A stretch of 64,000 bases of DNA from Akebia trifoliata (lineage: Eukaryota > Streptophyta > Magnoliopsida > Ranunculales > Lardizabalaceae), in assembly GCA_017979445.1 (NCBI GenBank), contig CM030706.1, positions 26,328,281-26,392,280 on the forward strand, read 5' to 3'. The notes under the pieces were generated by a model that was given only the letters and a program-made list of their open reading frames with translations, searched no databases and had not been told where the DNA came from. How positions within the stretch are numbered: position 1 is the first letter of the stretch; every line of letters begins with the position of its first letter. Shown here in pieces: positions 62-24,403 of the stretch. Made by a program: the position numbers and the translations under genes.

Positions 62-2336
62 TGTAGATATGTGATTTTTGTCATTATGATGGCCACATCT
101 ACGATGATTTGGAGTCGCCACCATTCAAATTGTAAGTGGGTGTAAATGGTTACTCGATGCACATTTTTTGAAAAATTGTCATTTTTGGCATTAGTAACTC
201 ACAACGGATAGGGAACTAAGCGAACCTAGGGATCCGGGTAAATGGCTCGATTGGAGAAAAGGGAAGGTGTTAGGTACCCTTTTCTCCTCGTCAAGTGACG
301 GTAACCTCAAATAACTCGATCATTTGATAATAAAAATGGAGAAAATAAAAGTGCCACGTGTGTGCATTGTGTACCCTAGATAGAAATTCATTTTCGGCTT
401 GATCATAGGGTCATTTCATTGATGGAAATGACCCTTATGAACCTTTAGCCTAGGGGTCCACTCATTTAAAATAAAGATAAAAGAGAAGATGGGGATATTT
501 AGAAAAGGGAAAAGGAGGGAGAGAGAGGGGAGGTGTACTTCAAACCCACCTTGTACCCTTGATCTTCTTTTCTTCTTCTTATTCTCTCCAATGTCTTCTT
601 CTATGAGTCTTCGTAGGTCCTTAGTAAAATTTGAGAGTATATATATTTTTTTGTGAAAGATTAGTGTGGGATTGGAGATGAGGAGAGAAAGTAGACTTTT
701 GTTTTCTTTTTTTTGTGAGACTTGGTAACCCTTTTTTAAAGGAGGGGAAGGTATTTATAGGTGTTTGGAGGGTGTTTGAGGGTATAATGGGATAAAAAAT
801 TGGGAGAATAGAGAATGGCATGGGTTTTTCAAGTGAAGGGTATGAAATTTTGAGTATAAGTGAGGGTAGTTGTGTAATGAGGGAAATGGGTTGTGTTTTA
901 ACCCAAATGATTTGGATCCTACCCAAATCCATTTGGGTAGAGTATTTGGTGGGATAAGAGGAGTGATGGTTGATAGGAGGAATGGGGGTGTAAGGTAGTT
1001 GTTTAGAGAAGGAGTGTTAGGTTGGTTGAGGAGGTGAGGTGTTTAGATTTAGAGGGATGGGTAGTGTAAGAGATTGGTTGGTTGGATTTTGGGAAAATAA
1101 AGGAGATAATGACATGTGGCATATGTGATGAGAGGGTGTGGTGATGAGATTGGTTGATTGATTGATGGTGGTTGTTTGATTAGAGAGAGAGGTATGGTTA
1201 GTTAGTTGATGATGAGGGGAGTATGGGTTGAGATGATTTCATTGGAGTGTTTTAAGGAAGGTGATGGATAGAGATATGGGTTGTGGTGTAGGTGGTTGAT
1301 GATATTAGAGAATAGGGATAGGTTACGGTATGTGGGATATGGGTTGTAATGTGGGTGGTTAATGAATGGGGATAGGTTAGGTTAGGGTAGGGTAGGGTAT
1401 GGGTTGAGGTGATTTTGGAGAGAGGTGATAGGGTTAGATGGATTGTTTAAAGAATGGTAATGGGGATAGGTAATTAGATGGGGGAGGTGAAGGGTGGAGA
1501 TGACATGTGTCATCTTTTGATGTTGAGAATGTGATTGGTTGATGTGGATAATGGGTTAAGGTTGTGGATTGGATAATGAATTGGATATGGGTAATGGTTT
1601 ATGGGCTTTTAAGTGTTGGGCTTGGGTTTAGGAGAGTTGTGGGTCATTTTGACTTGATTGGGATTTGTTTTGGATTGGATATTTGAGGGAAGGTAGGTGT
1701 TAGGGATTAGATGACATGGAGTTAATTTTAGATTAGGGTGTAACGTGGGAAATTGGTTTAGGAGAGAGTTAAGGGTTTATGGGCCTTGCATGGGCTTAAG
1801 GTGTTTGTGGATTTCGAGGTGGAGCGGTGGAGGGTGGATGATGGGTTGGCATCCCAAGTCTCTTATTTTTTTAATTTATTAATTTTTTTGAGATTTTTAT
1901 AGTTGTCGGTTTGATCAAAAATGCCATGTGTTTGGCAATTTGGGCCTTTTGGGCCCGTTGGAGAATTTTATCGATCGTTCAATTTCTCTTGGATATAAAG
2001 GAGGTGTGGTGAGGTCGAACATGTGTAGGATGGGTCGCAACCCTTCTTATAGGTCCCTTGGACCATTGGGAGGTCTTAAGGCCTTGCTTTACTCAAAATT
2101 GCCATTTTTTTATCGATTTGGGCCTTAGAGGCCCGTTTGCCTATTGAATGGAGCGGAGCATGTCGAGCTTTTTGGTGGACCTACTAACCCATTGAGAGGT
2201 GTTAGAGGCTTTGATTTTGACGAAAATGTCATATTTCGAGGGTTCGGGCCATCGAGGCCCGTTGGCTAAATTTATTGGAAAGTTACTGTTTTTGGGCCCT
2301 TTTGAGTGAGGGCCTGTTCAAATTGGGGTGTCTACA
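62..2336 (-). repeat. LTR of the large Tat element (3' LTR in transcript sense)
   Basis: A 2275-bp LTR nearly collinear with 22150-24398. Short open frames inside it recur in the other copy and are not genes. It contains a CT-rich stretch near 550-600, G/T-rich sequence around 950-1700 (GGTTGGTT and TAGGGTA motifs), and three spaced copies of a GGGCC...GGCCCGTT motif near 1944, 2111 and 2244. The LTR ends GTGTCTACA at 2336. Confidence 0.93.
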
Positions 2337-2791: not shown

Positions 2792-2966
2792 ATCCGTGCC
2801 TAACACACGGATAACGCTAGGCTCGATTTTACCCGTGTTTAGAACACGGATAGCATTCCTATTTCTTTCATCCGTGTTTGAGGCACGGTTATGACCAAAT
2901 TATCTTTATTCGTTCTACTGGCACAGATAGCACGCCCTTTGTTTCACCCGTACTGGTAGCACAGAC
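2792..2966. repeat. Palindrome array 1 (five units, ~39-bp period)
   Basis: Interrupted palindromes of about 21 bp (ATCCGTG...CACGGAT) start at 2792, 2831, 2870, about 2910 and about 2947; the last two are degenerate. The final unit ends CACAGACCAG, the same kind of variant end as in the arrays at 8283-8494 and 21221-21431. The array lies far upstream of the plus-strand gene at 5172, with a possible intron-containing leader between. A TATA-like TTTTAAAC follows at about 2976, then pyrimidine-rich DNA. Confidence 0.85.
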
Positions 2967-5171
2967 CAGTATGAATTTTAAACGGTTAAAGCCTGCACAC
3001 CCTTTCATTTTCAATTTCTTCTTCGTTTTCTTCGGTTTCTTTTCCCTCTTTGGCGATTTCTCTTCCTCTTCCTTTACTTCTTTTTGGTTTTCGTTGATTT
3101 GGACCTTGAGTTCGGCCTTAGGAGCGATTTGGAGAGTGTGTCACGCTTATTCGTTTAAAGCTTTTAAAGGGTTTGATCGAACTACGACTTCGCATTGAGG
3201 TATGTCGTTTCTTCTTTTTCCCTTTTCCTTTTAATTCTCTTGCCTACTTCGTGTGGGGACATTTGCTCTGTGCATAAATAACATCCCTTCTTTGTGCCAC
3301 CCATTTTTGATTTTTTCCTTTATATGTTCCCCATGTGAAGTTTTCATGATTTTTCAAATATTTTGCATCTGTTTTCCTTTCCTTTTTGGAATGCAATCAT
3401 GATGTAAATTACCCTGTCGATCTTTATTATATTTTCCGAGAATGTGTGGTGGTGGGTATGATTGATGGCTTGTGAATTTTGAAGATGGATTTGTGTGGTG
3501 TGATGGTGGAGAGTGGTGTTGGACAGAGTTTTTCCTAGGGTGTTTGGGTTTTGATATGGCAACGGTGGTGTTGTTTTGGGCGGTAGGAGGGGTAGATTTT
3601 TTGACCGTTAATAAGATATAGCGGTTTGGGACCGTTTTGACAAAAATTTTGATGAGGAGTTTGGACCGCTTGGGTGATTTTTATGATGGGTCGAGGGTCG
3701 ATTCTTGGGTGCTTGCCGGGCTTGGTAGGTTTGGTTTATGGTTTATTTAGTCAGGTTAGAATGTATGGGGTTGTGAAGAAGACTGGGTGTTTTTAGAAAG
3801 GAATTGACGAAGTGATGGTGGTGGCTAGATTGTCGGGTTACGAGCAGGATTGTTTAGGGCGAGGAATGGGATGGTTTAGGTGAGAAATTGGGTTGGTTTT
3901 TGAATAGATACCCTGGGCGATTAATGGACTGGTTTAGGTGTAATATCAGGGTGGGAACTGGGTAGTTTAAGGTTTGTTCGGAATGAGAATATGATCGAGT
4001 TTAGAGATGGTTTGGGATTGTTTAGAGGTTATTTGGAGTAGGTGCTTGGGTCGAGTTTGAGGGACGACTCTTGGTAGGGATTTAGAAGTGGCTAAGGTTG
4101 CTTTGGGGTTGATTTAGGTGTTTGAGAAATGGTTTAGGGGCCGACTTTGGGACTGAAACAGGGAAGGTCTGACATAGTCACGGGACTGTTTTAGGACTGT
4201 TGGGATTTGAGTTGGACTGTTGGTGAAGGGGCTTGATTTTTCTTCTCTTTCCCTATTTTTAGCATGCTTTTTGGTTGGAACTATCTGCTTATCATGCTCC
4301 TTGCGTTTATTTTTTTTATTTTTATTTTTGTTTTTTTCTCTTTGCCTACTTGATTGTGAATGTTTCGACTTGCTTCAGATATCTGCGTATTTTCTCTCTT
4401 TCGAATGGTATCCCCCTGTGATGAATGATTAATCGGCTTGGCATGGGTATAGGCTTGGTTGGATGCGTAGGTTTGGATTGGGTTTGGTTAGGTTTGATTA
4501 AGTCTGACTCGGGTTGACTGGGTTTAATGGGTGGACTGGGTTGATTGAGTTGACTTAGGTTTGACTGGGTTTTAGATTGAGTTGACTTGGGTTGACTGAG
4601 TTGGCTGGGTTAACTAGGTTAACTGGGTTAATGGGTTTAGCCTGGTTGATTAAGGTTGACTGGGTTAATGAGTTTGTTAGGTTTTGACTAGGTTGATTAG
4701 GTTTGACTAGACTTTGACTGGGCTTTGATTGGGTTGAACTTAGTTGACTAGACTTTGGCTGGGCTTGACTAAATCTGTCTGGTTTGACTGAGTATGATTC
4801 GAATTGATTGGGTTTGACTCGGGTTTGATCGAATTGGGTAGGTTTGACTCAGATTTGACTGGGTAGGTTTGATTGAGTCAACTAGGTAGGTTTAACTCAG
4901 ATTTGTCTGGTTAGGTTTGACTCCGATTTGACTAGGTAGGTTAGATTAGGTTGACTGAGTTGAGCGAGTTGACTGGGCCTTAGGTTGATTGGGTTGACTG
5001 TTTGATTCAGATGGGATAGGTTTGACTTAGATTGGATAGGTTTGACCAAGTTGATTAGGGTTGACTAGGTTTGACAGGGTTTGACCAGATTGATTAGGGT
5101 TGACTGGGTTACCTCGAGGTAGGCAAATAGGACACTTTCCTTTGCTGGCTCAGCGTTTTATTATTTTACTG
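2967..5171 (+). other. Non-coding leader between palindrome array 1 and the PMD-like gene
   Basis: No convincing coding region. 3000-3080 is pyrimidine-rich like a plant 5' UTR. A possible splice donor (GAG|GTATGT) lies near 3199 and a possible acceptor (CTCAG) near 5152, just upstream of the ATG at 5172, so this could hold a long leader intron; that is inference. 4440-5110 is a separate T/G-rich repeat field. Confidence 0.4.
4440..5110. repeat. Degenerate TTGACTGGG short-repeat field
   Basis: About 670 bp are built of loosely repeated words such as GGTTTGACTGGG and GGTTGACTAGG, at irregular spacing of roughly 10-20 bp. It lies just upstream of the plus-strand PMD-like gene, which is the 3' untranslated side of the gag-pol transcript. 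Tat elements often carry simple tandem repeats in this position. Confidence 0.8.
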
Positions 5172-7745
5172 ATGGGTAGAGAGAGGAGGAGCCGGGTAGT
5201 GCATCAGTCGTCCGACGAGGAAAATGAGGTGAGGCCTAGGACCTAGACCTGCTTCACTTTGGGGTCCGATGTGGCCACAGAGTGTGGCTGGCCGAGACAA
5301 CCCTCACTGAAGCCTGAGTCATCTATAGCTGGTTCTTCTTCTGGGAATAGGGTAGACGAGGCCAGTACTTATCAGAGTGGCCCAGTTGAGGATCTGACAG
5401 GCAGCAGCAATAGGAGAGGCCGGGCGGATAGGGTTGTGGGTGCCGACAGAGTGGGTCGTGAGGTTCCCAGGGTTGAGATCCTTGCGGAAGAGAGTGAGAG
5501 AGTACTAGATACCTCTCTGCTTCGTGGGCTAGGGAAACATGTTTCTATGCTTATTTGTTTGGATATCCCTACGCCCTATCCTTCCACTAGTTTCAGAGGT
5601 AGATGGAGCACCTTTCTTTCCACCGCTGCCCTATTTTCAAACGATATCCGAATGCAGTTTTCTACCGTGGGTTTTGGTGCATTCTTGCAGATTCCTACTC
5701 TTAGGGTTGATCGACCCTTGTTCTTAGCCATGGTTGAGAAATGGTTCCCTTCAACTCATTCTTTTCACATGTCGGAGGTGGAGATAGGCATCAGGCCTTC
5801 TAACTTTTTTGCCATCACGGGTATTGCGATAGATGGAGAGCCCTTGCCCATGGCCATGTTGTCGGTTCAGGAGGTGGGTGAACTGTTGGGCATCACCAGA
5901 GTCCCTGCCTCCATGGTGGGAAAGCAGGGGTGTATCAGCACGGAGGTATTGATGGGCCTTTTGTTGATAAAGGGGGAGGACGGAGCCCCTCATACTTATC
6001 GAGAGCGATCAGCCCGATTTGGAAATAGAGACTTTGATATTATCTTTCGCATCTGCTTCCTTCTATTCATCGGTAGCTGTTTCTTTTTAGAGGATGACTC
6101 TTCGGTTTTTACCACCTTCCTTTCAGTGATGCATGATGTCGATCGTATTGGAGATTTTGACTGGGGGAGTCTAATCTATAGTACTATTTTGGCTGGTCTG
6201 GATCGAGTAGTGGAGGGCATTACTGCGCCTCGTGGAGCTGGGATCTCCACACGTCTCTTTTGGCAGTTTATTAAGGTAAAAGATATTTTCTTTCGTTTCT
6301 TTTCAATTTCTTTCTCCATATCTCGCTCATCGTTTGACATTCCGCACCCTCTCTTCAGATTTTTGTTCACTTGTACTTACCCTTTTACCTGCTCACTCAT
6401 CGCTACCCCGACGAGGGCTATCCATTGGGTGCCTTTTGGGCTACGAGAGATGCTAAGGCCATTAGGAGCAGCCCTAGGAGTGCCTGGGCCCACATTGATC
6501 GATGTCGACTTCGAGATGTGAGTGTCTGAACCTTTCTCTTTATTTGACTCTGAAACTGCCTGTATCTATTGTTTGACTATCTCTTTTGCAGATCTTTTCG
6601 GTTACGCTTTGAGACCTCCCCCGCACTGTCAGCAGGAGGTAGGAAGTGAGGAACGCCTATCGGCGTAACACCAGGCAACAGCGCTACCCCTTCTTCATCA
6701 GAGAGTAGAGGTACACATTTTACCTAGGAGAGCGTCTGTTCTTCTAGCACGACGGGAGTCTTCGTATTCTTGTCGCTCCACTTGAGCCCATCTCGGGGGT
6801 TATGACGGTAGAGGAGTATCTCGTCTAGGCGAGGGGCGTAGATACTGCTGGATTGGTAAGAGGGGGCGACTATCAGGCATGGTTCCGAGAGGCATCCATT
6901 GGATGCATCATGCCTGCAGTTACTACCCAAGCTGGAATCACAGAGATTGGAGGGGTTCTGCTACAGGAGCATGCCGTCACAGTACATGCTCTATCATTAT
7001 CTCTTTTTTACAGAACTCACTGTTTTTTTATTATTCTCACTTGATCGGTGTTCTTGCTTTCGGGCTGATGATCTTCGTCGTCTCCGAGAGGGCTACGATG
7101 TGATCGAGGCTCAGGCGACGAGGACCGTGGAGATGGAAAACAGGTAGAAGGCCTCTAGAGCGGAGGTAGAGGAGCATGCTGCTTGGATTGAGGAGCAGGA
7201 GGCTCGTATAGAGGTGCAGACAGCCAGGATCTAGGAGTTAGAGCTGGAGATGATGCTGCGAGAGTCACGTTTGCAGGCTGAGATGGTACGTTATTTCTGT
7301 TTCATAGATCATAGCTCATAGCTCATGGTATTAAATTTTGACTGACTCCCTCATATGATCTTTTCAGGACTACTATAGATGCCGAGACAGAGCGAGCACC
7401 TCTGCGCGTCCTCCGACACCTCCTAGAGTAAGTGTCTGCATTTTAGTTGTTCATTTCTTTGCATATTCTGTACATATCACTGCCTGTGTTCTAATCTGCT
7501 CTGTTCTTTTGTTTTCATTCCTCTCCTTCCACTGGCCCTGCTGCCCCCGGCACTGATCTCGCAAGTACTATGGAGCAGGATGCTGCCCTGGATGCGGAGA
7601 TATTCTTCACGGATTCGGAGGGACAACTGCGGATGCACGGTCTACCTTCTTCCGGGGTATCTGGCTCAAGTGTAGTGGCCGGGTCTTCTTCTGGAACTAT
7701 CCCTGAGACTCAGAGTGCTTGGGACGATGCTCTTCCTTCCATTTG
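5172..7745 (+). pseudogene. Antisense plant-mobile-domain (PMD)-like gene of the Tat element, with introns and nonsense mutations
   Basis: ATG at 5172 (MGRERRSRVVHQSSDEENE...) opens a frame that meets a TAG near 5244 and then runs open to 6521. Within it, a W-F-x-STHSFHMSEVEIGIRP segment followed by an ITGIAIDGEP motif resembles the plant mobile domain (aminotransferase-like) family found in plant transposons and in the host MAIN/MAIL proteins. A good intron fits at about 6275-6358 (GTAAAAG...CTCTTCAG); reading across it restores a sensible frame (HRYPDEGYPLGAFW). A second fits at about 6519-6591. Further downstream, 7070-7290 encodes a Glu/Arg/Ala-rich coiled coil broken by TAG codons, with another intron before the exon at about 7368. 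The last exon ends ...AWDDALPSI-stop at 7745. Most stops are TAG where CAG would be expected. The gene runs opposite to gag-pol. Confidence 0.7.
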
Positions 7746-8282
7746 ATCTTTGTGTTCCTGCCAGCATTTTAGACATTTTGTATTAGTTTTCTGAACATTA
7801 TGTGTAAACATTTCAAACTTTTGTATGTATATATATTTGTGTCCATATTTCATTGTGTTTGTCTTATTATGATCACGTGTGCAATTGATTCGGGTTCCAA
7901 GGAGTTTTTTGGGTGTGGTATCCATCATTAGGGTTTTTGAGTCTTCTTGAGTTTTGGTGAGTCTACGGGTGGGTAAAGGGTGCGATTAGGGTCCCAAGGA
8001 CCCTTTGAATGTGCTCTTTGAGTGATGTGAGTCATTTAGGATCTATGGTGAGTGAGGTGGTCCTTCGAGGTCTGATTTGGCCCGATATGATTCTGGCAAG
8101 TTCCTACGTGTCCGATATATATTTTGAGAGTTTCTGGGCATTTCGAACGCTTTTATCGAACGCGTAAGAATTTCTATCATTCTTTACATGATTTAGAGGT
8201 GTCAAGCCCTGAGATGGCCATTATGTAGTCTGGAATTATCGATATCTCAAATGACTCAAGACCCAAGGCTTAGAGCGTTCTG
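7746..8282. other. Intergenic between the two antisense genes
   Basis: No coding signal. It is the 3' flank of the PMD-like gene and leads into palindrome array 2. TGTATGTATATATATTTGTG at about 7822 is simple AT-rich sequence that could lie in the 3' end of the upstream transcript. Confidence 0.5.
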
Positions 8283-8494
8283 GTCCGTGTTCTCAACACG
8301 GATGGGTTTTTTCAATTTTCATCCGTTCCAGGAGCACGGATAGGTCATTTCCTCTTTTATTCGTGCCTTAAGCACAGATGAGTCACATTTTGCTTCATCC
8401 GTGCTTCCAACACGGATAACCTAAGATTGATTCTATCCGTGTTTTGGGCGCAGATCTATTGACATTTGTCCTTATCCGTGTTTCAAACACGGAC
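8283..8494. repeat. Palindrome array 2 (six units, 38-bp period)
   Basis: Six interrupted palindromes of about 21 bp (arms ATCCGTG / CACGGAT around a variable centre) start at 8283, 8321, 8359, 8397, 8435 and 8474, a near-constant 38-bp spacing. The spacers differ between units while the arms and the period are kept. The last unit ends CACGGACCAG. The array is 142 bp upstream of the ATG at 8636, with a TATA-like CTATTTTAAG at about 8511 between them. Confidence 0.92.
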
Positions 8495-8509
8495 CAGTAT
8501 GATTTACTC

Positions 8510-8519
8510 TCTATTTTAA
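8510..8519 (+). promoter_or_regulatory. Possible TATA-like box for the DUF7745-like gene
   Basis: CTATTTTAAG lies 16 bp past the last palindrome of array 2 and about 120 bp before ATG 8636, followed by a pyrimidine-rich stretch like a plant 5' UTR. A similar TTTTAAA lies at the same relative place after array 1. Inference from position only. Confidence 0.35.
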
Positions 8520-8635
8520 GCCTGTTTCAACTTCATTTTGTCCTAACATTTCACTTTTCACGATTTTTTACTTCCCTTTTTCACTTTTGACTGATTTTTG
8601 CTCTCCTTCTTTCTCAAAGCTTCTTCTCAAGCTCC

Positions 8636-10237
8636 ATGGAAGTGTCTTCTACTCTCCCCAATTTGAAAATGTATGGCATTGTCGATCCTTTTTTGAGTAG
8701 TTGGATAAGTAGTATGGATAACGATGATTGAGCTCAATAGTGTTTTAACAAGTTGGGGTTCACTCTTTCTTTGCCCAAGGTTCCATTGCAATGGAGCTTG
8801 ATTGAGGCTATGTTGGGGTATTGGATCCCCAAGCTTAACCTCTTTCAGTTTGGGGTGCATGAAATGACTCCCACCATTGAGGAGTTTGAAGTGTTGTTGG
8901 GGTTTGAGATATCGGGCCCAGTTGTGATTCCACCGTTGCGTAATGGATACCGAAGTGAGGCTTCCGATTTTTTTGGGATAAGCCGCAAGTTTTTAAAGAT
9001 TCCGGATGGTGGATCGATTTTGAAGACAACGTCCAAGTCTTTCTTGATTGAATGCCTCACGGACTCCTCGAATCCGTTGATTCATTTTAATGCCCTCACT
9101 TTGATGGTGGTGAGCCAACTCTTGTTTCCGAGTGGCGGAGACATCATGGATCTTTCTCTTATTCACGTGATTCAGCAAGTCCGGGAGAGACACCGGTTGG
9201 CACCGATGCTTTTAAACGATATGTTCTAATCTCTCACGGCTTGTTCTTCCGGTCGTGATCGAGTTTTCCGAGGGTGTGCTCCACTCCTGCAGGTAAATTC
9301 CGAACTTAGCTTAGTTTTTAAATTTAAATTTGAACTTGCTAGTTTCCAAAGTTTAGAATGCTCCTGTTATTGTAGCTTTGGTTTATGGATCATCTAGCTT
9401 CAACTGAAGTGGTAAATCGCCCATTTTGCGTTAACGCCGATCTTGTACTCATGATATCGAGGCGAGTTGCTCCCTTCATCTCGGGTGGCAAAGAAGAATG
9501 TTATTCTTTTATCGACAACCTTGATGATGAAGAAGTGAGGTGGGTTAGGGCCTTCCAACCTCGAGGGTCTCCCATGATAGTATTTGACGGTGCCCGTTTT
9601 CTCATTTTGATTGGTCTTCACGGGGCAACCCATTATGTACCACTTCGGGTTCTTCGTCAATTTGGCTATGACCAGGGTGTGCTCATCCCTAAGAATTTCA
9701 ATGAGTTGGTTGGTCCATTGTCGACTGCACTTTTGAGTCGACTCGTAAAAGAATGGGGTCGAGTTGAGGTTTTGAGTCGACCCATCTTTGCAACACACCA
9801 ATTCCCGGCATACTTGCATTGGATTCGAGAGCTCATCTCTGGGAGACCATCAGTGTCGATAGTTCTCCGAACACGTCCTGGTGCTTCATCCTTCTTTGAC
9901 TATCGAGATCGAGTGGAGGAGTCTCAAACTGATCATCGTCGAATTCAAGCCATTTGGCTCAAGTCCGAGAAGAAGATACAAAAAGAAATCGCTCGGCTGA
10001 CATCTGCCCTTGCCCAGTCTGGATCTAGTGATGGTGGTGAAGTGGCTAGGCTTCGAGTTGAAGTTGCCGAGTTGAGGGATCGACTTGCCCAGTGTCCTCA
10101 TTTTGAGGACTTTGCAGCATACTTGGTGAGCCGTGATGCTTCCGATACCGAGAAAGTGATGATGAGTCAAGCTGCCCGGATCTGTACTTTGGAGGAGCGC
10201 CTTGACTCTTTTTTCATTTCTCACCATGATGTTTGAC
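8636..10237 (+). pseudogene. Antisense DUF7745/PMD-like gene of the Tat element, one intron, three nonsense codons
   Basis: ATG at 8636 (MEVSSTLPNLKMYGIVDPF) begins exon 1; in-frame TGA and TAG fall near 8729 and 8738 and TAA at 9227. A W-I-P...LFQFGVHEMTPTIEEFEVLL segment resembles the helical N-terminal part of the DUF7745 / plant mobile families. An 83-bp intron (9293-9375, CAG|GTAAAT...TTGTAG) joins GCAPLLQ to LWFMDHL, a junction typical of the family, and exon 2 is open from 9376 to 10237. The C-terminal ~100 residues are predicted coiled coil (heptads such as EVARLRVEVAELRDRLAQ). The gene runs opposite to gag-pol and converges on it. The function in Tat elements is unknown; calling it DUF7745 rather than PMD is from memory. 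Confidence 0.72.
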
Positions 10238-11639
10238 TGATTGCGCTATATTCTCACTTTTGTATTTTCTTGTCATTAACTGGATGTATGCAAAAACGTT
10301 GGAAGATTAATGCAAAGAAAATAAGTTTTGTACTTACTTGGCCTCAGGTACATCTATTGTTCTTGAAAACTCGAAGTTTTGTTGAATACGTCCTAGATTT
10401 TTCATCATCAGTCAAAATAGTAGTTTTTTTTTATTTTTTTTATTTTTTTTATTTTTTATTTTTTTGAAATTTTGTTAAATGTCTTTGTCAAATGAGTACG
10501 ATAAATTCAGAGTTTGTAAATCTTATTTGGTTATGACAATTTCGGTGTTTTTACCAAACACAGGGGATACAAGCGTCAATTGTGTTTTTGGTACCTTTAG
10601 AATCATGCCCAGTGCCTTGGTATTGGAAGCTTGTTATCTGTTTGGGTATCAGGATTTGGAAAGATTTTTCCGTTCACAGTTTATACTCTTGCGGGCTAGG
10701 AGTTTTTTTTTTTTTTTGCTATTCACCCCTATTGCCCCTGGTACCAATTAAGGTTTTCACCGGACCCGATTTCCACATTTTAGCGCATCGACGTTCTTTT
10801 TGAAATTTTCATCGTGTCAGTGGTTTTGATATTGCAATAATCTGATTCTTTTACTCATAGCGCCCTTTCGGGTTTTCACTATGCCCTTTTAGACTATGTT
10901 TGTTTCTTTAAATTCTTCCATTACAATTCAGTTCGGAGTCTTTGTGTCTCTGTGGCTTGGTGACCAAGTTGAGCTGCGAGATTGGCGACTCTACTCTTGT
11001 AGTGGCACTCTTTCTTGAGTAATAGATCTGGATTTCCCTCTTGAGTTTGCTGACGACTATTCGTGGTTCGACAACTCAAATTGAGCCGCGAGATCGGCTA
11101 CTCTACACTTCGAGTACTCTTTTTTTTCAAATATCCGACCTGGATTCCCCTTTTGAGTCTTCCAACGACTAATAAGACTTTGGTGGTCCGGACCAAGTCA
11201 CAAGATCATTGATGCTGCCATTGTCATTGTGTTGTCCTAGAACGTTCCCTGATCAAAAAGGACTTTTGTTGGGACGGAACGTTGGCTTAGGCTAATGGTA
11301 GTGGAAAGTTACAAAAAGGGTCTAGGTCTGTCTAGAGTGGGTTGGACTTGAGGTTCGTCTATTTTTGTTTCAAAAATGTGATCTGTGTTTCCTCCCCGCA
11401 TCTCTCGAACTTGTTTAAGTTGAAGATCTAGGTCGAGCTCAGATCAAATGTCCAAGTTTTTGACTTTTTTGAAATATTTTTAGCCGTTCACAGTTTATCC
11501 TCATGTAGGCTAGGAGTATTTTGATGCTTTCTTCTTGTTTTTTCTGATTTTCTCTTTGATTTTCTTTCTTTTGTCACTTTTTTTTCTTTTTTTTTTCGGT
11601 ATCGTTTTGTAGTTGTTGACTGGCCCCAGTCTTAGGTTA
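10238..11639. repeat. Convergent intergenic region with imperfect duplications
   Basis: This lies between the 3' ends of the DUF7745-like gene (plus) and pol (minus). CCGTTCACAGTTTAT followed by GGCTAGGAGT occurs twice, near 10669 and 11493. A ~120-bp imperfect repeat (GAGCYGCGAGAT...CGACTCT / CGGCTACTCTAC) covers about 10960-11180. T-rich runs of up to about 15 T lie at 10420-10465, 10700 and 11580-11600. No coding region is supported. Confidence 0.6.
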
Positions 11640-11739
11640 AGAAATGAACGTGATAGCTCAAAAGGATTGACTAAGGTAGATAGTTTGTTCAGGATATCAA
11701 GGATGGCCTTTCGTCATCTCAGGGTTAGTTCTTAGGCGT

Positions 11740-12797
11740 AGTATTTCTTAACAGTGTCAGCATTGATCGGTTGTGGGAAGACTTGTCCATCCATCTCCGT
11801 AAGGTTCAGAGCTCCTCTTGTCATTGCCTTTTGCACGATGAATGGTCCCTCATAGTTCGGTCTGAATTTCCCTCTAGTATCTTCTTGGATTGGCAAAATT
11901 TTCTTCAACACAAAGTCTTCTGGTGAGAAATTTCTAGGTTTGACTTTCTTGTTGTAGGCACGGGCTATCCGTCGCTGATAGATCTGTCCATATCAAATGG
12001 CTGCAAGACGTTTCTCCTCTATCAGATTCAGTTGATCAAACCGAGCTTGAATCCATTATGCTTTATCTAACTCTGCTTCTTTTAAGATCTGGAGGGAGGG
12101 AATCTCCACTTCTACGGGTAAGATTACTTCCATTCCATAGAACAGTGAATACGGAGTTGCCCCAGTCGAAGTCCTGAACGAGGTTCAATAGGCATGAAGT
12201 GTGAAAGGCAACATGTCGTGCCAATCCTTGTACGTAACTGCCATCTTCTCGATAATTTTCTTGATATTCTTGCTGGTAACCTCGACTGCTCCGTTCATCT
12301 TAGGTCTGTAGGGTACAGAGTTGTGATGAGTGATCTGGAAATCTTCGCACATCTTGATTATATAATTTTTCTTGAAGTTCTTGGCATTATCAGTCACTAG
12401 TCTGCTAGGAAGTCCGTATCTACAGATAATCTTGTTCTTGACAAACTTCAGGACATTGCTTTTGGTGACATTAGCATATGAAGCAGCTTCTACCCACTTT
12501 GTGAAGTAGTCGATGGCCACTAAGATGAAGCGATGCCCATTTGCAACTTTAGGTGAGATTGGCCTGATGACGTTCATTCCCCAAAGTGAGAAGGGCCAAT
12601 GAGTGGTCATATTATGTAGCTCTGAAGGCGGAGCATTAATCTTGTTGGCATAAATCTGACACAGATGGTATTTGTGAACATACTGATAGCAGTCATTTTC
12701 CATTGTTGTCCAGTAATATCCCATCCGCATAATCTTCTTTGCTAGCATGTGACCATTCATGTGGAGCCTACAGACTCCACCATATACAGTCTCGATT
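11740..12797 (-). pseudogene. Integrase domain of the large Tat element
   Basis: Minus-strand translation gives an HHCC-like zinc region (HMNGHMLAKK...YQYVHKYHLCQ), a DDE catalytic core (VTDNAKNF; NGAVEVTSKN) and a C-terminal part to about 11740 (PEDFVLKKILPIQED, YEGPFIVQ). The first catalytic Asp is replaced: the codon at 12572-12574 reads Asn in WGMNVIRP. The CxxC pair reads YxxC. A stop interrupts the C-terminal part near 12060. The frame is shared with RT and RNase H upstream. Integration by this copy's own enzyme is unlikely. Confidence 0.88.
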
Positions 12798-13921
12798 AAT
12801 CATTTTTCTTCTGCTTCTACCACGCATCGGAGCAAGACCTCGTGGTGCGATTTTTTGTACAGAATACCATTATTAAGAAAGAATTGCCCTGCTAGTTTTT
12901 GAATGGTTCTGCGATCATTTGACGTTGCATCTGAGGGAAGGGTTCGATCCTCGAGATATGCTCTGATGTCCGAGTACCAAGGTTTTTCTTCAGATTCTTC
13001 TACTTCGACGGGAAGACAGTAAGCCAGCTCATCTTGAATTTCAATCTCAATTGGGTCGATGACCAGCTCTTTTGAGATACTAATAATGGAAGCAAGCGTA
13101 GCTAGTGCATCGATGAATTGATTCTTAGCTCTTGGCATGTATGTAAATGAGATCCTGTCAAAGCGTGAGCTTAGTTCTTCTAGATACTCGTGGTAAGGGA
13201 CCAGTCTCTGTTCCCGAGTCTTCTATTCTCCAGTCGTCTAATAGACTACTAAGCTTGAATCTCTGAAAACATCGATCTCATCTACCTCGAGATCTAGTGC
13301 TGCTTTCAACCCTGCTATGCATGATTCTTATTCAGCTTTGTTGTTAGAGCATTGAAATTTCAATCTGATGGCGATTGGCACATGGGAACCATCTGGTTTG
13401 ATTAAGACTACCCCTATCCCATTTCTTTTCTAATTGGCTGTTCCGTCGAAGTACATTTTCCAGCCTGGTTCTTCGTCATCTTCATCATTTTCAATCTCGA
13501 TAAATAGTATGGCTTCATCCGAAAAGTTCGTCTTTAACGGCTCGTAGTCAGGCAACGGGTGCTTAGCGAGGTGGTCTGCGATGGCTTGCCCTTTGATGGC
13601 TTTTTGAGTGACATAAGTAATGTCAAACTCAGATAACAATAACTGCCATTTTGCTGTGCGGCCTGTTAATGCTGGTTTTTTGAATAGGTACTTCAGGGGG
13701 TCCATCCTGGCGATAAGCATAGTTGAGTGGCTGAGCAAATAATGACGCAGTCGTTGAGATGTCCAGACTAATGTACAGCAAGTCTTCTCAACTGTTGAAT
13801 ATTTCGCTTTGTAATCGGTGAATTTCTTTCTGAGATAGTAGATGGCCTGTTCCTTCCGTCTTGATTCATCATGTTGCCCTAGCACACACCCTATAGATGT
13901 TTCTTGCACTGAGATATACAT
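12798..13921 (-). pseudogene. RNase H plus second (Tat-type) RNase H of the large Tat element
   Basis: From 13921 down to 13430 comes a gypsy RT-linked RNase H (IYYLRKKFTDYKAKYSTVEK, RHYLLSHSTMLIARMDPLKYLF), then a linker ending GWKMYFDGTAN. From there to about 12800 the same frame, with stops in 13139-13429, encodes a second RNase H (DGTAN; MPRAKNQFIDALATLASI). Two RNase H domains in tandem define the plant Tat clade; the second is the archaeal-type domain. A long acidic tether follows to the integrase. Stops in the second domain make it inactive here. Confidence 0.85.
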
Positions 13922-14014
13922 CAGTAGAGGTCGCCCTGGAGTAGGAGGGACTAAGACTGGTGGATTGAACAGATATTGCTTGATCTTGTCGAATGCTTCC
14001 TGACAGTCTTTGTT

Positions 14015-14900
14015 CTACTTCTTCGACGTATCTTTCCTTAGTAGCTTGAATACCGATTCACAGATAGGCGTCAATTGCGCTATAAACCGACTGATATACT
14101 GTATTCTCCCCAGAAAGCCCCGAACGTCCTTTTCTGAAATAGGTGCCTTCATTTCGAGGATATACTTAGTTTTTACCGGATCTATCTCGATACCTCTTTT
14201 GCTGACTATAAACCCCAATAGCTTGCCTGATGTTGTCCCGAACACGTATTTGGCAGGATTGAGCCTTAAACTTTACTTCCTGAGCCTGTCGAACAACTTC
14301 TTGAGATTTACCAGATGATCTTCTTCTACACCGGATTTAGCGATCATGTCGTCTACGTAGACCTCCATCTCCTTGTGGATCATATCGTGGAATAATACGG
14401 TCATTGCCCGTTGGTACGTCGCCCCCGCATTCTTCAGTCCGAATGGTATGACTTTGTAGTGGAAAGTATCCCATGGTGTGATGAATGCAGTCTTTTCTTG
14501 GTCTTCTTCTACCATTTTTATCTGGTTATAGCCTGAGAAGCCATCCATGAACGAGAACATGCCATGCCCTGCTGTACTATCGACTAGATTGTCGATGTGT
14601 GGAAGTGGAAAATCGTCCTTAGGACTGACTGTGTTCAAGTCTCGGTAGTCAACACACATGCGTACATTTCCATCTTTCTTAGGTACTGGGACAACATTGG
14701 CTAACCACTCAGGGTACGTAGAGACTGCAAGAAATCCGACTTTGAACTGTTTCATGACCTCGTCTTTGACCTTGAGGGTCTATTCTGGCTTTAGTCTTCT
14801 CAGTTTCTGCTTGATCGACTTGCTAGTAGCAATTGGTAGTTTGTGGACAACCAGATCTGTGTCTAACCCAGGCATATCCTTGTATGACCATGCAAAGACG
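14015..14900 (-). pseudogene. Reverse transcriptase of the large Tat element
   Basis: RT motifs read right to left: NVVPVPKKDGNVRMCVDYRD, FPLPHIDNLVD, FSFMDGFSGYNQIKM, TPWDTFHYKVIPFGLKNAGA, and EVYVDDMIAKS with both catalytic Asp intact (about 14345). A TAA at about 14270 interrupts the thumb (LRK-stop-SLRLNPAKYVFG), after which LLGFIVSKRGIEIDP and the connection continue in the same frame to 14015. Upstream, DVFAWSYKDMPGLD at about 14870-14920 marks the usual segment before RT. Confidence 0.9.
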
Positions 14901-15970
14901 TCCTGATACTTTCGTAGGAATTCGACCATTTCTTATTTTGTTGCGACGTCAATAAAGCTCCAATCTTGACAATTCGTGGGTCCTTTTCGGTACCAAGATT
15001 GATTGAATCTGTATCCTCGATATTTTGCTGAACACCTTTCTCGTGACGTTCCACCAAGTTTTTGATTTCTTTGGGTGGGTACTCCATTTCGTCCTCAGAC
15101 TCTTCTTCTATCCCCATTAGGTCGAAGTAGAGTTCAAGATCAAAATCATACTCATCCCTTTCAAATTCTATTTTATCTAAGTACTTATTTGATTTAGACA
15201 AATCCCTTGAAATTTTTTTTTTATTTTTGAAAAAAATATTTTTTTTTGTAATTTTGAAAGCTTTTTGATTTTTTTGATTTTTGAGAAATTTTTGTTTTTT
15301 TACTTTTTGAGAAATTTTTGTTTTTTTGTGATTTACTGGATACCTGAAATAAGAAGAACAATCGTGCAAATTTGTTAATAAAGATAGGGAGCCCTCAAAA
15401 TAGTCTTTACCCGAGGACGAGGGCTCGTTATGATCCTCAGGCAAATTGATGTAGTCTAACGGTATTTTTTTTAGGCCTCAATAACCTCAAGAGTTAATGG
15501 AAATTCTTCCCAGTTGTGCAATGTCTCCCCTTCTCTGAGGGGGCGAATGAGATGATCGAGTGATTTGTTGGATGATTTGGTTGATGGTTTGGAGATGACC
15601 ATGATCTCCGATGGTTTGTTGTCAGATTGGGGCACAGCCCTCCCAAGCTTGGTGGGATAATGACTGATGCCCAGTCAATGTCCATGAAAAAGGTTGATTC
15701 TTTCTCGTGGTTTGTAGTGATTTCCACTTTGGTGGATTCTAGAGCGGTCTTTGATGGAATTTCATCGGAATCTCCATTGAATAAAACATCAATGCCTTCT
15801 ACGAAGGATGATTGAGACTCGATGACTGGGTCTTCTTAAATGTAAATAGGTTTGGATTTTACCACTTTTGGCCTTTTGGTTGCTTTCATTGGCAGTGATT
15901 CTGATAAGCTGTCGGGTCTAGTATGTGATTTTGGAAAGTTGATACTGATATGTGGAATTCTGCTTAGATT
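14901..15970 (-). pseudogene. Protease-RT linker of the large Tat element, frameshifted
   Basis: An acidic linker (DYDFDLELYFDLMGIEEESEDEMEYPP) and a conserved Tat segment (GTEKDPRIVKIGALLTSQ) can be read from 15444 to about 14943, but this stretch is out of frame with RT, so a frameshift lies near 14943. 15190-15340 is very A/T rich (K/N-rich reading). Ogre elements are known to carry an intron between protease and RT, so part of this stretch may be intronic; I cannot place splice sites. Confidence 0.55.
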
Positions 15971-16775
15971 CTAGATGTTCGGTTCACGATTTTGCCTTCT
16001 TGCTAGTCGGAGTTCTTTTTTCTTGTCATTCATTTCTGCAATATCGCTTTTTGTGGGCCTAAACCCCAGACCGAAATAAGGAGTATGCTTTCTTACTTCG
16101 ACCGATGTAGCTCTTCTTCTTCCTCCTGGTCCCAACCCTTGCTTGGGTCGATAACCTACCATTTTCATAACCCGACCAATCGTCAAATTTGTTCTTGATA
16201 GCTTTGTCCTTACCTTCTCTTTCTCCTTCTCGATGTGATTGACAGCAGCGAATTGGTATGAATGGTAGATTGCCTTGTCCTTTGTCATTTCGATATCAAT
16301 GAATGGCACATCTTGAGCTCTCCTAGCTGGAATAAGGTTCTCTGCCAATACTGATATCATCCTCTGTCCCATGATAAATTTGACTCTTTGGTACAACGAG
16401 GAAGGTACAGCTCCAGCAATATGGATCCAAGGTCTGCCCAGTAACAAGTTGAAGGTCATTGGTATTTCCATAACTTCAAACGTCACTTCAAAGGTGTAAG
16501 GACCTATTGTGATCAGTAGGTCCACTTCGCCCAGTGAATCCCTTCTTGAATTATTGAACCCTTGGATGTCTTGTTGTTGGTTTCACATGTGACCAATCAG
16601 CGTTGAGTTTCCGGAAGGTTGCAAGCGGACAAACATTAAGCGCTGAGCCATTATCAATCAGTATTCTGGCAACCATCATGCCCTTGCATATGACCATAAT
16701 GTTTAGTGGCTCGACGTGCCCTGTTCCTTCAGGCATAAATTCATTCTCTATGAAAATAATAGGATTGGGGGCCAT
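15971..16775 (-). pseudogene. Aspartic protease region of the large Tat element, frameshifted
   Basis: LIDNGSALNVCPL (D-N-G form of the retropepsin motif usual in this clade) lies at about 16630-16670. A frameshift near 16555 joins it to FNNSRRDSLGEVDLL, then FNLLLGRPWIH, AGAVPSSLYQRVKFI and a glycine-rich G-patch-like GYRPKQGLGPGGRRR. One stop codon (16776-16778) separates it from gag in the same frame, which may be decay or a natural gag/pro boundary. Confidence 0.8.
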
Positions 16776-16778
16776 AAT

Positions 16779-19319
16779 CTAGCCTACCATTTGTTCCAAC
16801 TGCGCCGATGAGGTGGTTGTAGGTACATGTGATTTCCCCAGAACTCTTAGTAATGCCTCTTTGTGTTCCTTTGATTTCTGCATTAGGCCCAAAATACTAA
16901 TTTGAGCTGGCTGTTTGTTTAGCTGGTCCACGATATTATACTCACTCTTTCGAGCGAGTTTAATAAAGTCTACAGCCTCTTTATGTGTCACCTTTGCCTT
17001 CACTTCCATCTTATCATCTTTATACAGCTTACCCTTTCCCTTCACTTTTTTTTTCTCTTCGTCTGTCACTTCTTTTGCTGTTTCTTTTGTTTCTTCTTTG
17101 ATGTTCACTTCATTTTCTGACGATTTCTGGTACTTCCCTGCCTTTGTTATACGGTCGATGTCAGCCACCGTTGCTTCCTTCATAGTTTCAACCCTGGTGG
17201 TTGTGGTGATAGTGGTTTCATAGCTCCAAGGAACTGCCTGGTCAGAGCTATAGGGGAATGGTTTAGGTGAGCGTATGGTTATGGGGGGTAGATCGGGTTT
17301 CATATTGAGGATGAGGGGTAGTGGTGACGATTTGGGTATAGTGGTGGTGGGAGGAGCTATATGAGGATTGTATGGAATGACGAGTGGTGGACGTGAGGAG
17401 GAGGTGTATGATATATGAAGGAGAGGTCGGGTTGATCCTTGAGGAGTTGGCAGTGTGTATGGTCTAACAAGAGGAGGTCGGGTTGAATTTTGATGGTTCG
17501 ATGATCCATAAAGAATAACTGAGGTGGTCGGGTAGCAGTATTTTGATGAGTGGGGTGGATGGTGAGGTCGGCCAATCTGAGTGGTGGTAGTGAATTTTGG
17601 GATGCGTTTGTTGTGTAGTGGTTGACTGTGTTAACCGTTGATGCCTTGAATTCTTGGGTTAGGTGGACCCTGATTTTTGTCCCAATAGGTGCTATCTAAT
17701 CCGAAGGATTAAAGTTGAGTTCTCCGCAGATGACATTTACCCCGTGCCCATTTCCTTCCCCATTATGATTAGGTAGGAGGTTTTGATTGATATTCTGTTG
17801 TTGGGATGGGTTGGCAGGCCCATCCAGGATGAGAGCCATTTTATCAATCAGGTTTTATTCTTGATGCTTGAGCTGCTAGCATTGGTCTGTAGAGTGCCCT
17901 GGCGCACCCATATGAAATTCACAGAACAGGTTCGAGTTGTACCCTAGCCCTTTAGCAGCCTCGGGGTTTGGTGGACGTTTTACCAGGTATTCACCCCTGA
18001 GTAGGATTGGCAGTAACTCTGATAGTGTCATAGGTAACTTAGTGAACACTTTATTTACTCTGTTGGGTCGTGCCTGTTGATTATGCCCATATAACGGTGC
18101 CTGCTGTGCAACTGGTGGAGGATTTGCTCGAAATGAATTCTGAGGTAGAGGGTTTCATGTTGGCGGCGTTGGTGCCCATGAAGTTGACGATGCTTGTGGT
18201 CTTGGTGCTGGTGAAGGGATGAAGAGGGGTCGATTCGGCTGTACGTTATTAACCTGAATTTCTTTCCTCTTCTTTCTCGTAGGTACTGGCTTTCTCTGAG
18301 GAGGGATTCCTGTTGTTGCCCCTAGACTCGTGAAGTTAAAGATCAGACCGGTTCAGATCCCATCTTTGACCCGATCCGCCACTTGTACTAGATTCGAGAA
18401 TGTGCCTGTGGTATACCCCACCAGATGAGTATAGAAGGCGTGCCCTAGTGTTGAGAAAAAAATGGTGTTCATCTCTTACTTTGTCATTGCAGTAATTTTG
18501 CCAGAACATCTCGGCTAGGTCTTGCCAGTTCTTAATGAGCGAGTGATCCAATCCAGAAAATCATTTGAGTACCGGCCCTATTAAGCTCCTCTGAAACAAC
18601 TACACCAATAACATGTCATCCTCGCCATACTGGCAAATGGATCCACAATACAACTTCAGATGCGATAGCGGACACCTTACTCCGTTATATTTTTCAAACT
18701 CCGGACACTTGAACTTGGCTGATAATTGAGCATTGGGGTAGAAGCACAGATCCTTGAATCGGGTTCCGCTCATAGTGTTGAGGCCCTTCATCCTCCTCAT
18801 TTCTTCCTACAGAGATTCGATTTGCTGAGCCAGTTTTTCATCTGTTGCACTTTTGACTTCCGTAGCCCTGTACTCACATTCATCGTCGGGAATGACCACA
18901 GGGGGTGGCTGATTCTGTGGAATATAGAGCGGAGGCCCCTGGTATTCAGGCACTACAGGTGGCATAGTGGTCTGTGGTCCTTGTGGAGGTTGCTCGGGTA
19001 ACTCTTGATTCAACCCGGATGCATGTTGCTGTATCGTTTGAGCTTGTAGGATGCTAGCATTGGCTAACACAGTACTTACTATCTTTTCTTGCCTCTCAAT
19101 TATCTTTAGTAGTGCTGTGATTTGTGGATCGATACCAGAGGTTTCGGTTACTGGGGGTTGTGCTGGTTCAGATGATCTCAGAAAATATGAAGGCACTTCT
19201 GGCTGCTTGTATTTCTTTCGCTTGGCCACCTGTGGGTACAGGCAACCAAGTGTTACTATCTCATTTACAAAAAGAAAGATGCATGATGTTTTATTAAGTC
19301 GGGTAAAGTTGTTTATCAT
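16779..19319 (-). pseudogene. Gag of the large Tat element
   Basis: The minus-strand frame from 19319 is shared by pieces ending at 18807, 18600, 18336 and 16779. It contains a Pro/Gln-rich N-terminal part with a coiled-coil-like ITALLKIIERQEKIVSTVL, then the Tat gag core: FKDLCFYPNAQLSAKFKCPEFEKYNGVRCP, HLKLYCGSICQYGEDD, and SLIKNWQDLAEMFWQNY. The C-terminal part (17303-16779) is Lys/Glu-rich with a Tat-type AVDFIKLARKSEYNIVDQLNKQPAQISIL. Several stops (for example at about 18804 and in 17310-18330) break it. No CCHC zinc knuckle was seen. Confidence 0.82.
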
Positions 19320-19331
19320 GACTTTTAGTAC

Positions 19332-19925
19332 AAAAAGTAATTTCTCGATGTGGAGCCGGTATCAACATTGAGTTGGTAAAATATTTTACAAAAGAATTAC
19401 ATCAGCACGAAGCTGGCATCGATACGGAGTCGATAAAATATTTAAGGAAAGGTAGTTTCATCAGCCCGGAGCTAGCATCGACACGGAGTTGGGAAAATAT
19501 TTTGAAAATAGAATTATCTCAACATGGAGTTGGCATCGGCACGGAGTCGGCATAAACACGGAGTTGGCATTAGCACGGAGCTGAGATCAACACGGGGTCG
19601 GAAAAATATTTTGAAAAAGTAATTTCATCAGCACGGAGCTGGCATCAACACAGAGTCAGGAAAACATTTTGAAAAAGTTAATTTCATTAGCACGGAGCTG
19701 ACATCGACACGGAGTCGGGAAATTTTTTGAAAAAGGTAGTTTCATCAGTACGGGGTTGGCATCGACACGGAGTCGGAAAAATATTTTGAAAAAGATGATT
19801 TCATCAGCACGGAGCTGGCATCGACACAGAGTCGGGGAAAATATTTTGAAAAAGGTAATTTCATCAGCACGGAGCTGGCATCGACATGGAGTCAGGAAAA
19901 TATTTTGAAAATGTAATTTCTAAGA
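19332..19925. repeat. ~59-bp tandem array in the gag leader
   Basis: About nine copies of a 58-60-bp unit (ATCAGCACGGAGCTGGCATC, then GACACGGAGTCGG, then an A/T-rich AAAATATTTTGAAAAAGG spacer). Units begin for example at 19401, 19460, 19627, 19686, 19744, 19803 and 19863; the stretch 19510-19620 is rearranged. It abuts the gag start. Each unit holds two CACGG cores, the same core as in the 21-bp palindromes. Confidence 0.9.
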
Positions 19926-20224
19926 TAAATCGAGTTGGAATGCCCATGTTTTTGGTAGACTCCAATTCAGTTATCTGAAATCACTGTCGGCCAGGCGGAT
20001 CTCCAAGGAAGAGGCAGCGCACAACGGCACTCTTAAATCACCTTGTTCCCTGAATAGACATAGTCTATCCCCCTCATATAAACAGGGTAAGATCTTTCTA
20101 GGCACCGACTTTGATCAAGGACTGCCATTGGTACCTTTTGAAATCTAATTTTTTTTAATGCATTCGAGTTGATTGGCTGGTTGTTATCTTTGTTAGATCA
20201 TGATCTTGGTTCAAAATTGGATCT
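19926..20224. other. Leader sequence between the two tandem arrays
   Basis: Non-coding part of the gag leader with no repeat structure that I can see. Confidence 0.5.
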
Positions 20225-20985
20225 GGATCTGGTTTGTAATAGATCTGGGCTGCGGATCCAGTTGAAGATAGATCTAGGTTGTAAATCCAGTTGAAATGGG
20301 TTGAATCTAGGTTGTGGACCCAGTTAAAAATGGATCTGGGTCTTGGACCCAGATGAGAGTGGACCTGGGTCGTGGACCCAGTTGGAAATGGACCTTGGTC
20401 GTGGGCCCAGTTGGAGACGGATCTGGATCGTGGACCTGATTTAAAAATGGGTTTGGATCTGGGTTGTGGACCCAGTTGAAAATGGATCCGGGTCGTGGAC
20501 CCATTTGAATGGATCTGGGTCGTGGACCCAGTTGGATTGGATCTGGTTCGTTGACCCAATTGAAAATGGGTCTGGGTCTTGGACCTAGATGAGAATGGAT
20601 CTTGGTTGTGGACCCAGTTGAAAATGGATCTGGGTCGTGGACCCAGTTGAATGGATCTGGGTTGTGGACCCAGTTGAAAATGGATCTGGGTCGTGGACCC
20701 AGTTGAACGGATCTAGGTCGTGGACCCAGTTGGATTGGATCTGGGTTATGAACCCAGTTGAAAATGGAACTGGGTTGTGGACCCAGTTGAAAATGGATCT
20801 GGGTCGTGGACCCAGTTGAACAGATTTGGATCGTGGACCCAGTTGAAAATAGATCTGGGTCTTGGACCCAAATGAAAATGGATCTGGGTCGTGGACCCAG
20901 TTGGATTGGATATGGATTGTAGGCCCAATTTTGACAGGTACGGGTCGTGGACCCGGTTTAGATGTATACGAGTGGGGACCCGGTT
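20225..20985. repeat. ~28-bp tandem array of a 17-bp palindrome in the gag leader
   Basis: About 24 copies of CTGGGTCGTGGACCCAG (arms CTGGGTC / GACCCAG) occur every 26-31 bp, joined by spacers such as TTGAAAATGGAT or TTGGATTGGAT. Well-preserved copies lie near 20366, 20515, 20629, 20685 and 20797. Short reading frames here (PTGSTT/VHDPDP repeats) are products of the repeat and not genes. In the leader RNA each unit could fold as a small hairpin. Confidence 0.92.
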
Positions 20986-21220
20986 CGCAAAATCATTTTT
21001 GGTTTGGGAAAATCCGTAAATCTTCCCCTCTTTTTTTTATTTATTATTTTTTCATTATTTTTTTATTTTTTTTTATTTTGACTAACAAAGATCCATTTTA
21101 CTTAATTTGTCCAAAACTTGGGATTTTTTTTTCTACGGGTCATCAATGTTTGATCAATAGTGAGTGAGCCTATTCAAAAATGGACTGTCGAGTTCATTTT
21201 GTAGGGTCTAGTTCAATCTA
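20986..21220. other. A/T-rich leader segment
   Basis: A T-rich stretch (21030-21085) with no coding signal, between the 28-bp array and palindrome array 3. Confidence 0.5.
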
Positions 21221-21431
21221 GTCCGTGTTAAAGGCACGGATGTAACCCTCATTCTATTATCCATGTTTTAGGCACGGATAAGACATTTACTATTTCAACC
21301 GTGCTCAAAACACGGGTAAAGTAGTTACTGTTTTAACCGTGCTTCCAACACGGATGAGGCATGCTTTGACTCAACCGTGTTCCCAACACGGATGATGCTC
21401 ATTTTTGTCCATCCGTGTCATGGACACGGAC
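21221..21431. repeat. Palindrome array 3 (six units, exact 38-bp period)
   Basis: Units of about 21 bp (ATCCGTG / AACCGTG ... CACGGAT) start at 21221, 21259, 21297, 21335, 21373 and 21411, exactly 38 bp apart. The last unit ends CACGGACCAG as in array 2. In transcript sense this array lies about 720 bp inside the 5' LTR, upstream of gag. Confidence 0.93.
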
Positions 21432-24398: not shown

Positions 24399-24403
24399 AG
24401 AGG

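Follow-up and report, generated by a model that had tools for sequence, protein, structure and literature searches.

The window analysed here, 64,000 nucleotides of Akebia trifoliata (contig CM030706.1 of assembly GCA_017979445.1, positions 26,328,281 to 26,392,280), contains a complete long terminal repeat (LTR) retrotransposon of 24.3 kb (window positions 62–24398), with LTRs and the target-site duplication AGAGG at both ends. Two genes for proteins of the plant mobile domain (PMD) family lie on the plus strand between pol and the 3′ LTR, antisense to gag-pol. The element also carries three arrays of a short interrupted palindrome, which may be a repeated operator for a dimeric DNA-binding protein.

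An original prediction, made from the letters alone, placed 17 such palindromes in three places, and all of them were recovered. The unit is ATCCGTG-N7-CACGGAT, present in arrays of 5, 6 and 6 copies spaced by 39, 39, 38 and 38 bp in array 1, by four steps of 38 bp and one of 39 bp in array 2, and by five steps of 38 bp in array 3. The units match the arms at 10 to 14 of 14 positions. In the 64-kb window 15 sites score at least 12 and 12 sites at least 13, every one of them within the arrays, compared with a mean of 0.03 sites at 12 or above (maximum 1) and none at 13 or above in 60 windows simulated by a first-order Markov model. The units at 2908 (score 11) and 2946 (score 10) are unremarkable alone and were counted by phase only. 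Beyond 21431 the window holds no palindrome site of 11/14 or better. The outer edges of the arrays are alike: on the left, CTGA, CTGG or CTAG precedes TCCGTG (CTGATCCGTG, CTGGTCCGTG and CTAGTCCGTG in arrays 1–3), and on the right stands CACRGACCAG (CACAGACCAG, CACGGACCAG and CACGGACCAG). The three arrays thus look like copies of one cassette.

Counting both strands, the 64 kb contain 44 copies of the hexamer RCACGG, and 36 of these sites fall in the three arrays (6, 8 and 11, together 25) and in a 59-bp tandem array beside gag (11). Elsewhere there are 8 sites, while composition predicts 13.4 for a whole simulated window; neither LTR contains any. The observed/expected ratio of CpG is 1.03–1.23 in the arrays and 0.39–0.48 in the LTRs, the motif itself supplying CpGs.

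The further claim of conserved arms and period with variable spacers also held up. Mean identity between units is 0.83 for the arms and 0.40 for both the 7-bp spacer and the 17-bp linkers (shuffled levels 0.25, 0.26 and 0.29; 11 of the 14 linkers compared, the three of 18 bp being excluded). For spacers and linkers, most of the excess over shuffles is apparently due to a purine/pyrimidine pattern. All 17 units have Y immediately inside the left arm and R immediately inside the right one; of the 14 linkers, 13 start with R and all end in Y. The symmetry thus reaches further, to Y-ATCCGTG-Y...R-CACGGAT-R. Linkers are equally alike within arrays (0.37–0.41) and between them (0.38–0.41), so that the arrays are neither recent tandem copies nor recently homogenised.

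All 14 linkers are nevertheless 17 or 18 bp long. At the rate seen in the element's own LTRs, 14 indels for 158 substitutions, the probability that linker lengths differ by no more than 1 bp is 0.0067 if the divergence is 0.6 substitutions per site per lineage, roughly what pairwise identity suggests; it is 0.088 at 0.3 and 0.0001 at 1.0. Constancy this improbable supports selection on the phase, in a manner that depends on the model. As 38 bp corresponds to about 3.6 helical turns, adjacent units do not lie on the same face of the helix.

The unit looks as if kept as two DNA half-sites and not as a hairpin, because the arms show no compensating changes: two-sided changes were found in none of the seven arm pairs across the 17 units (shuffles average 0.6). 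Standard pairs fill 85.7% of arm cells, compared with 86.5% with shuffled partners, and 17 of 119 cells are unpaired. At the innermost position the combinations TA, TG, CA and CG occur 5, 4, 4 and 4 times; each side varies independently, and this free combination of the inner Y and R is expected of two separately read half-sites.

Departures from the arm consensus affect 23 of 238 positions: 5 at the outer edge, 5 in CpG and 13 others. The five at the outer edge recur between arrays. The remaining 18 compare with 14.4 (8.9 CpG, 5.5 other) expected from LTR divergence since insertion, which suggests that the arms were close to uniform when the element inserted. The idea that the arms decayed solely after insertion holds in part: non-CpG departures number 13 where 5.5 are predicted, an excess to which three neighbouring units of array 3 contribute through a common AACC variant.

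Table 1. Features of the retrotransposon (window coordinates; arrays are numbered from the left).
Feature	Position	Strand	Remarks
Target-site duplication, left	57..61		AGAGG
3′ LTR	62..2336	-	2275 bp; plus strand reads TGTAGATA...TGTCTACA
Array 1	2792..2966		5 units; starts 2792, 2831, 2870, 2908, 2946
Possible core promoter and first leader exon, PMD gene 1	2967..3199	+	by eye: TTTAAA, pyrimidine-rich stretch
PMD gene 1, open frame	5247..6518	+	PF10536, E 1.8e-11
Array 2	8283..8494		6 units; starts 8283, 8321, 8359, 8397, 8435, 8474
Possible core promoter and leader, PMD gene 2	8495..8638	+	by eye: TATA-like TATTTTAA, pyrimidine-rich stretch
PMD gene 2, frame one	8741..9226	+	PMD E 5.6e-11, DUF7745 E 1.4e-8
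PMD gene 2, frame two	9376..10233	+	PMD E 2e-4, below cut-off
Integrase rve	12188..12799	-	Pfam
Second RNase H-like domain RVT_3	12803..13222	-	E 8.7e-4, 19.6 bits against a Pfam cut-off of 21.6 (marginal)
RNase H RT_RNaseH	13433..14014	-	Pfam
Reverse transcriptase RVT_1	14276..14779	-	Pfam
gag region (presumed), broken frames	16782..19361	-	by position and peptide resemblance
59-bp tandem array beside gag	19374..19930		17-mers with core RCACGGA, 4-bp stems
29-bp tandem array, gag-pol leader	20217..20957		CTGGGTC-GTG-GACCCAG palindromes
Array 3	21221..21431		6 units; starts 21221, 21259, 21297, 21335, 21373, 21411
5′ LTR	22150..24398	-	2249 bp
Target-site duplication, right	24399..24403		AGAGG

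The element encodes reverse transcriptase (RT), RNase H and integrase in this order on the minus strand (Table 1), which identifies the right-hand LTR as the 5′ LTR and the left-hand one as the 3′ LTR. The order RT, RNase H, integrase is that of Ty3/gypsy elements. The LTRs differ by 158 substitutions over 2218 aligned sites (7.1%) and by 14 indels. The frames that we take to be gag, by their place and by a resemblance of the peptide, gave no significant Pfam match. A weak G-patch match (15974–16582, minus strand; E 2.3e-4, 21.4 bits against a cut-off of 22) lies in the expected protease region, and a search of positions 1–24500 against Rfam gave no match at the gathering level.

Besides its LTRs and target-site duplication, the element has two RNase H domains (the second marginal) and PMD open reading frames (ORFs) beyond gag-pol. 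In the cited passages of PMC6317226, the Ogre and Retand elements of the Tat lineage have two RNase H domains, the second between RNase H and integrase, and 57% of Ogre elements are reported to carry a PMD extra ORF. Domain order and PMD genes together make an Ogre-like member of the Tat lineage the most likely identity of the Akebia element.

For the two antisense genes a PMD-like and a DUF7745-like product had been proposed. The first identity stands, whereas the second gene scores better as PMD than as DUF7745 (Table 1). PMD and DUF7745 are the only domains above cut-off in the three antisense frames, and neither DUF1985 nor DUF287 was listed for them up to E 10, a level at which the HMMER filters drop most weak matches. 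The product of PMD gene 1 had no match at E 1e-3 among the 7997 candidates scored from a protein collection. In a viral contig collection, this protein and RT as queries gave 2 and 5 pattern matches, none of which was confirmed as a relative, and a two-unit palindrome pattern had no match. A sequence search for solved structures found none, and a structure of PMD 1 predicted without an alignment (mean pLDDT 34.6) was discarded.

The original prediction placed one array upstream of each transcription unit, and this fits array 2 best: from its end to the open PMD frame at 8741 the distance is 247 bp. This interval contains a possible core promoter and leader, a candidate start codon at 8636 (by eye) and an earlier ATG at 8498. 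Since translation from 8636 would run into a stop codon ahead of 8741 and the other ATG is available, the protein start of PMD gene 2 is only a candidate. Array 1 lies 455 bp inside the edge of the 3′ LTR, and 2281 bp separate its end from the open frame of PMD gene 1. A sequence resembling a 5′ splice site, AG/GTATGT, follows it at 3199/3200 (by eye), and we infer that array 1 is tied to the start of PMD gene 1 via a leader intron. There is precedent in this lineage for a promoter of an antisense gene: in maize Grande such a gene has one of its own immediately upstream, according to the cited passages of PMC7264820. Array 3 departs from the proposed placement. Its distance is 719 bp from the inner edge of the 5′ LTR and 1860 bp from the gag-side open frame, which it precedes. 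Since gag-pol is read from the minus strand and its promoter is presumably in the 5′ LTR, array 3 would be within the gag-pol leader and not upstream of that promoter.

Our preferred reading, held with moderate confidence, is that the arrays form a repeated operator, and that a dimeric DNA-binding protein acting there co-regulates the element or relieves its silencing. The sites, their symmetry, the independence of the half-sites, the spacing and the positions can be read directly from the DNA; from these we infer protein binding, promoters, activation or anti-silencing, and the bearing of array 1 on a frame 2.3 kb away. The three arrays would be copies of one cis-regulatory cassette with five to six evenly spaced predicted binding sites. 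The protein would bind as a symmetric dimer in which each half recognises roughly RCACGGAT(R). On the promoter side of the two antisense PMD genes, arrays 1 and 2 would be their operators, and array 3 would mark the gag-pol leader. A single factor on all three arrays could then switch on the whole element or keep it unsilenced together. The operator proposed originally is thus supported in part, by a dyad-symmetric site, two half-sites and phase; what it lacks is the placement at every unit.

If the arrays are an operator, one of the PMD proteins that the element itself encodes is the most probable reader, although we hold this tentatively; a host transcription factor comes a close second. Taken as a whole, the proposal that the PMD proteins are sequence-specific binders of the phased palindromes, de-silencing or activating all three units, is doubtful. 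Under it, the RCACGGA core of the 59-bp array would be a second target. This common core may be due to chance, since by our own estimate a 6-mer falls in a 59-bp unit at a frequency of a few per cent.

Several observations weigh against the operator or its self-encoded form. No DNA binding by a PMD protein appears in the passages of the papers cited here. The ‘DOWN’ motif linked to MAIN/MAIL1 (CATGCAGTTT, MORC1 promoter) does not resemble the palindrome when the sequences are compared by eye. BLASTP finds no similarity between PMD 1 and frame one of PMD 2, and one common binding specificity is therefore not given. The element is already decayed and is the sole copy examined, and the excess of non-CpG departures in the arms described above adds to these points, as does the position of array 3 downstream of the presumed gag-pol promoter. 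The second half of the linker is pyrimidine-rich on the plus strand in all arrays (6–9 of 9 bases, 11 linkers), so that the polarity of array 3 is that of arrays 1 and 2 and points away from gag; for a symmetric site, polarity may matter little, if at all. The downstream flanks of arrays 1 and 2 align with a score of 25, compared with a shuffled maximum of 33. They have the strings CCAGTATGA and AAGCCTG in common, which are given no weight beyond this mention; nor is any given to the upstream flanks of arrays 1 and 3 (score 47, shuffled maximum 43), both of which are T/A-rich. The distance of array 1 from its frame and the stop in the 8636 frame slightly lowered our confidence in the operator and in self-encoded PMD binders, and slightly raised the standing of a passive minisatellite, which we still consider unlikely.

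A host factor is one form of the operator reading, in which the arrays would be enhancers for an ordinary plant transcription factor, comparable to the LTR enhancers of other retrotransposons; in this full form it is possible, if not probable. Dyad-symmetric repeated cis boxes upstream of the TATA box are known in plant LTR retrotransposons from the cited passages of PMC2829016. The LTRs are the usual seat of host-driven enhancers, and here they are free of RCACGG. Inverted CGT...ACG half-sites also recall the sites of NAC and VOZ factors (PMC4081100, PMC6321167), the NAC core being CGT[G/A] (PMC4081100). The register in all 17 units is CGT-N9-ACG, whereas the sites given in the cited passages, CGT-N7-8-ACG for NAC and GCGT-N7-ACGC for VOZ (N8 being suboptimal), are one to two bases shorter. 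On this spacing NAC and VOZ sites, from the two factor families that were compared, were rejected.

Alternatively, the arrays may be a passive minisatellite, one of the functionless tandem repeats common in Tat elements, with a palindromic unit favouring amplification. Tandem arrays with units of 8–100 bp are described in 32 representative Retand clusters, or about half, in the cited part of PMC11963269, and the present element has at least two further tandem arrays. Neutral arrays should lose arms and linkers alike, but here the arms have kept 83% identity and the linkers 40%. One unit in three separate places with like edges is also unexpected of a passive minisatellite.

Subterminal arrays are common in some DNA transposons, and the palindromes could be such repeats, bound by the transposase of a DNA transposon with which a PMD gene entered the element. 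PMD domains are indeed present in MULE transposons as well as in Gypsy elements (PMC5418596, cited passages). Array 3 lies far from the PMD genes, and we regard this origin as improbable.

The weakest explanation, hairpins in the element's RNA, finds some support in the folding of array 3 as leader RNA far above shuffles (z -7.8) and in the covarying stems of the neighbouring 59-bp array, but good folding is expected of any row of palindromes, arrays 1 and 2 sit outside the leader, and it was dropped as very improbable for the 38-bp arrays, where the 17 units show no compensating change, pairing is no better than with shuffled partners and the inner positions vary independently.

The 59-bp array itself consists of 17-mers CATCRRC-ACGGA-GYYGG, in which 4-bp stems covary around a kept loop (15 of 19 sub-units are distinct). 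Its stems have 9 two-sided cells compared with a shuffled mean of 4.5 and a covariation score of 0.51 compared with 0.35 (reached in 0 of 500 shuffles); two of five measures do not exceed shuffles (two-sided pairs 2 and 2.0, further pair types 6 and 5.9). As leader RNA it folds with a z of -4.1. Its units may be RNA hairpins in the gag leader, although descent from a small number of ancestral subtypes could account for some of the covariation. The 29-bp array showed no covariation in the 21 units matched.

Several features lie outside the element. A 77-bp tandem array (25229–26195) is found just beyond it, and a relative of its LTRs (67–78% identical in pieces) lies in opposite orientation at 40541–42645. 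Direct repeats at 26531–27950 and 36219–37965, about 9.7 kb apart and 70–81% alike in their main pieces, flank a frame bearing RNase H (29101–29559) and possibly belong to another LTR element. Positions 59462–63624 contain long LINE-type frames: one of 779 aa encodes endonuclease and reverse transcriptase, and the next one, of 670 aa, overlaps it.

Three known systems resemble the arrays and are compared here through the cited passages of the respective papers. The Sirevirus RM boxes (PMC2829016) are dyad-symmetric and occur in 8–32 copies per element in 13 elements, upstream of the TATA box and again before ENV in elements that have this gene; their clusters form CpG islands. Sireviruses are Ty1/copia elements with the boxes in the LTR, whereas the Akebia element has the Ty3/gypsy order and LTRs without RCACGG. 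Their boxes measure 10–20 bp, have the core CGG..CCG in all but one case and show no fixed period in those passages; their second gene is a sense ENV and not a pair of antisense PMD genes. We would regard them as the same idea in another superfamily and at another place.

In VANDAL transposons (PMC5735166, PMC10398659), dense short motifs likewise occupy several non-coding places, and the self-encoded regulator VANC binds these arrays and removes silencing. VANDALs are DNA transposons, their motif YAGTATTAY is a 9-mer in one orientation and not a palindrome, and VANC has DUF1985/DUF287 domains in place of PMD. Their arrays are tandem repeats with units diverging together, unlike the unrelated linkers found here. 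Retand and other Tat elements (PMC11963269, PMC7264820) have antisense genes between pol and the 3′ LTR and non-coding tandem arrays with a proposed regulatory role; the antisense domain of Retand is TRP28, and the text cited gives no palindrome or operator reading (PMC11963269).

The original prediction knew of no such system. For Tat or Ogre elements this still applies, as no palindromic operator array is described among the matches listed in a search of open-licence PubMed Central articles by title and start of abstract. The novelty is narrowed by precedents (PMC2829016, PMC5735166): palindromic boxes before a promoter and a second gene are already known from Sireviruses, and self-encoded regulators with target arrays from VANDALs.

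One operator repeated upstream of the PMD genes and in the gag-pol leader would provide a testable handle on the function of PMD genes in giant Tat/Ogre retrotransposons. The 38-bp unit can be used as a probe for the protein, and the motif for scans of plant genomes. If the binder is self-encoded, plant transposons would have evolved counter-silencing via target arrays on at least two occasions, using different protein families. The PMD proteins of transposons would then have a molecular function, and VANC a retrotransposon counterpart built on a different protein family. If true, this would also offer a starting point for understanding how the host PMD proteins MAIN and MAIL1 came to control silencing.

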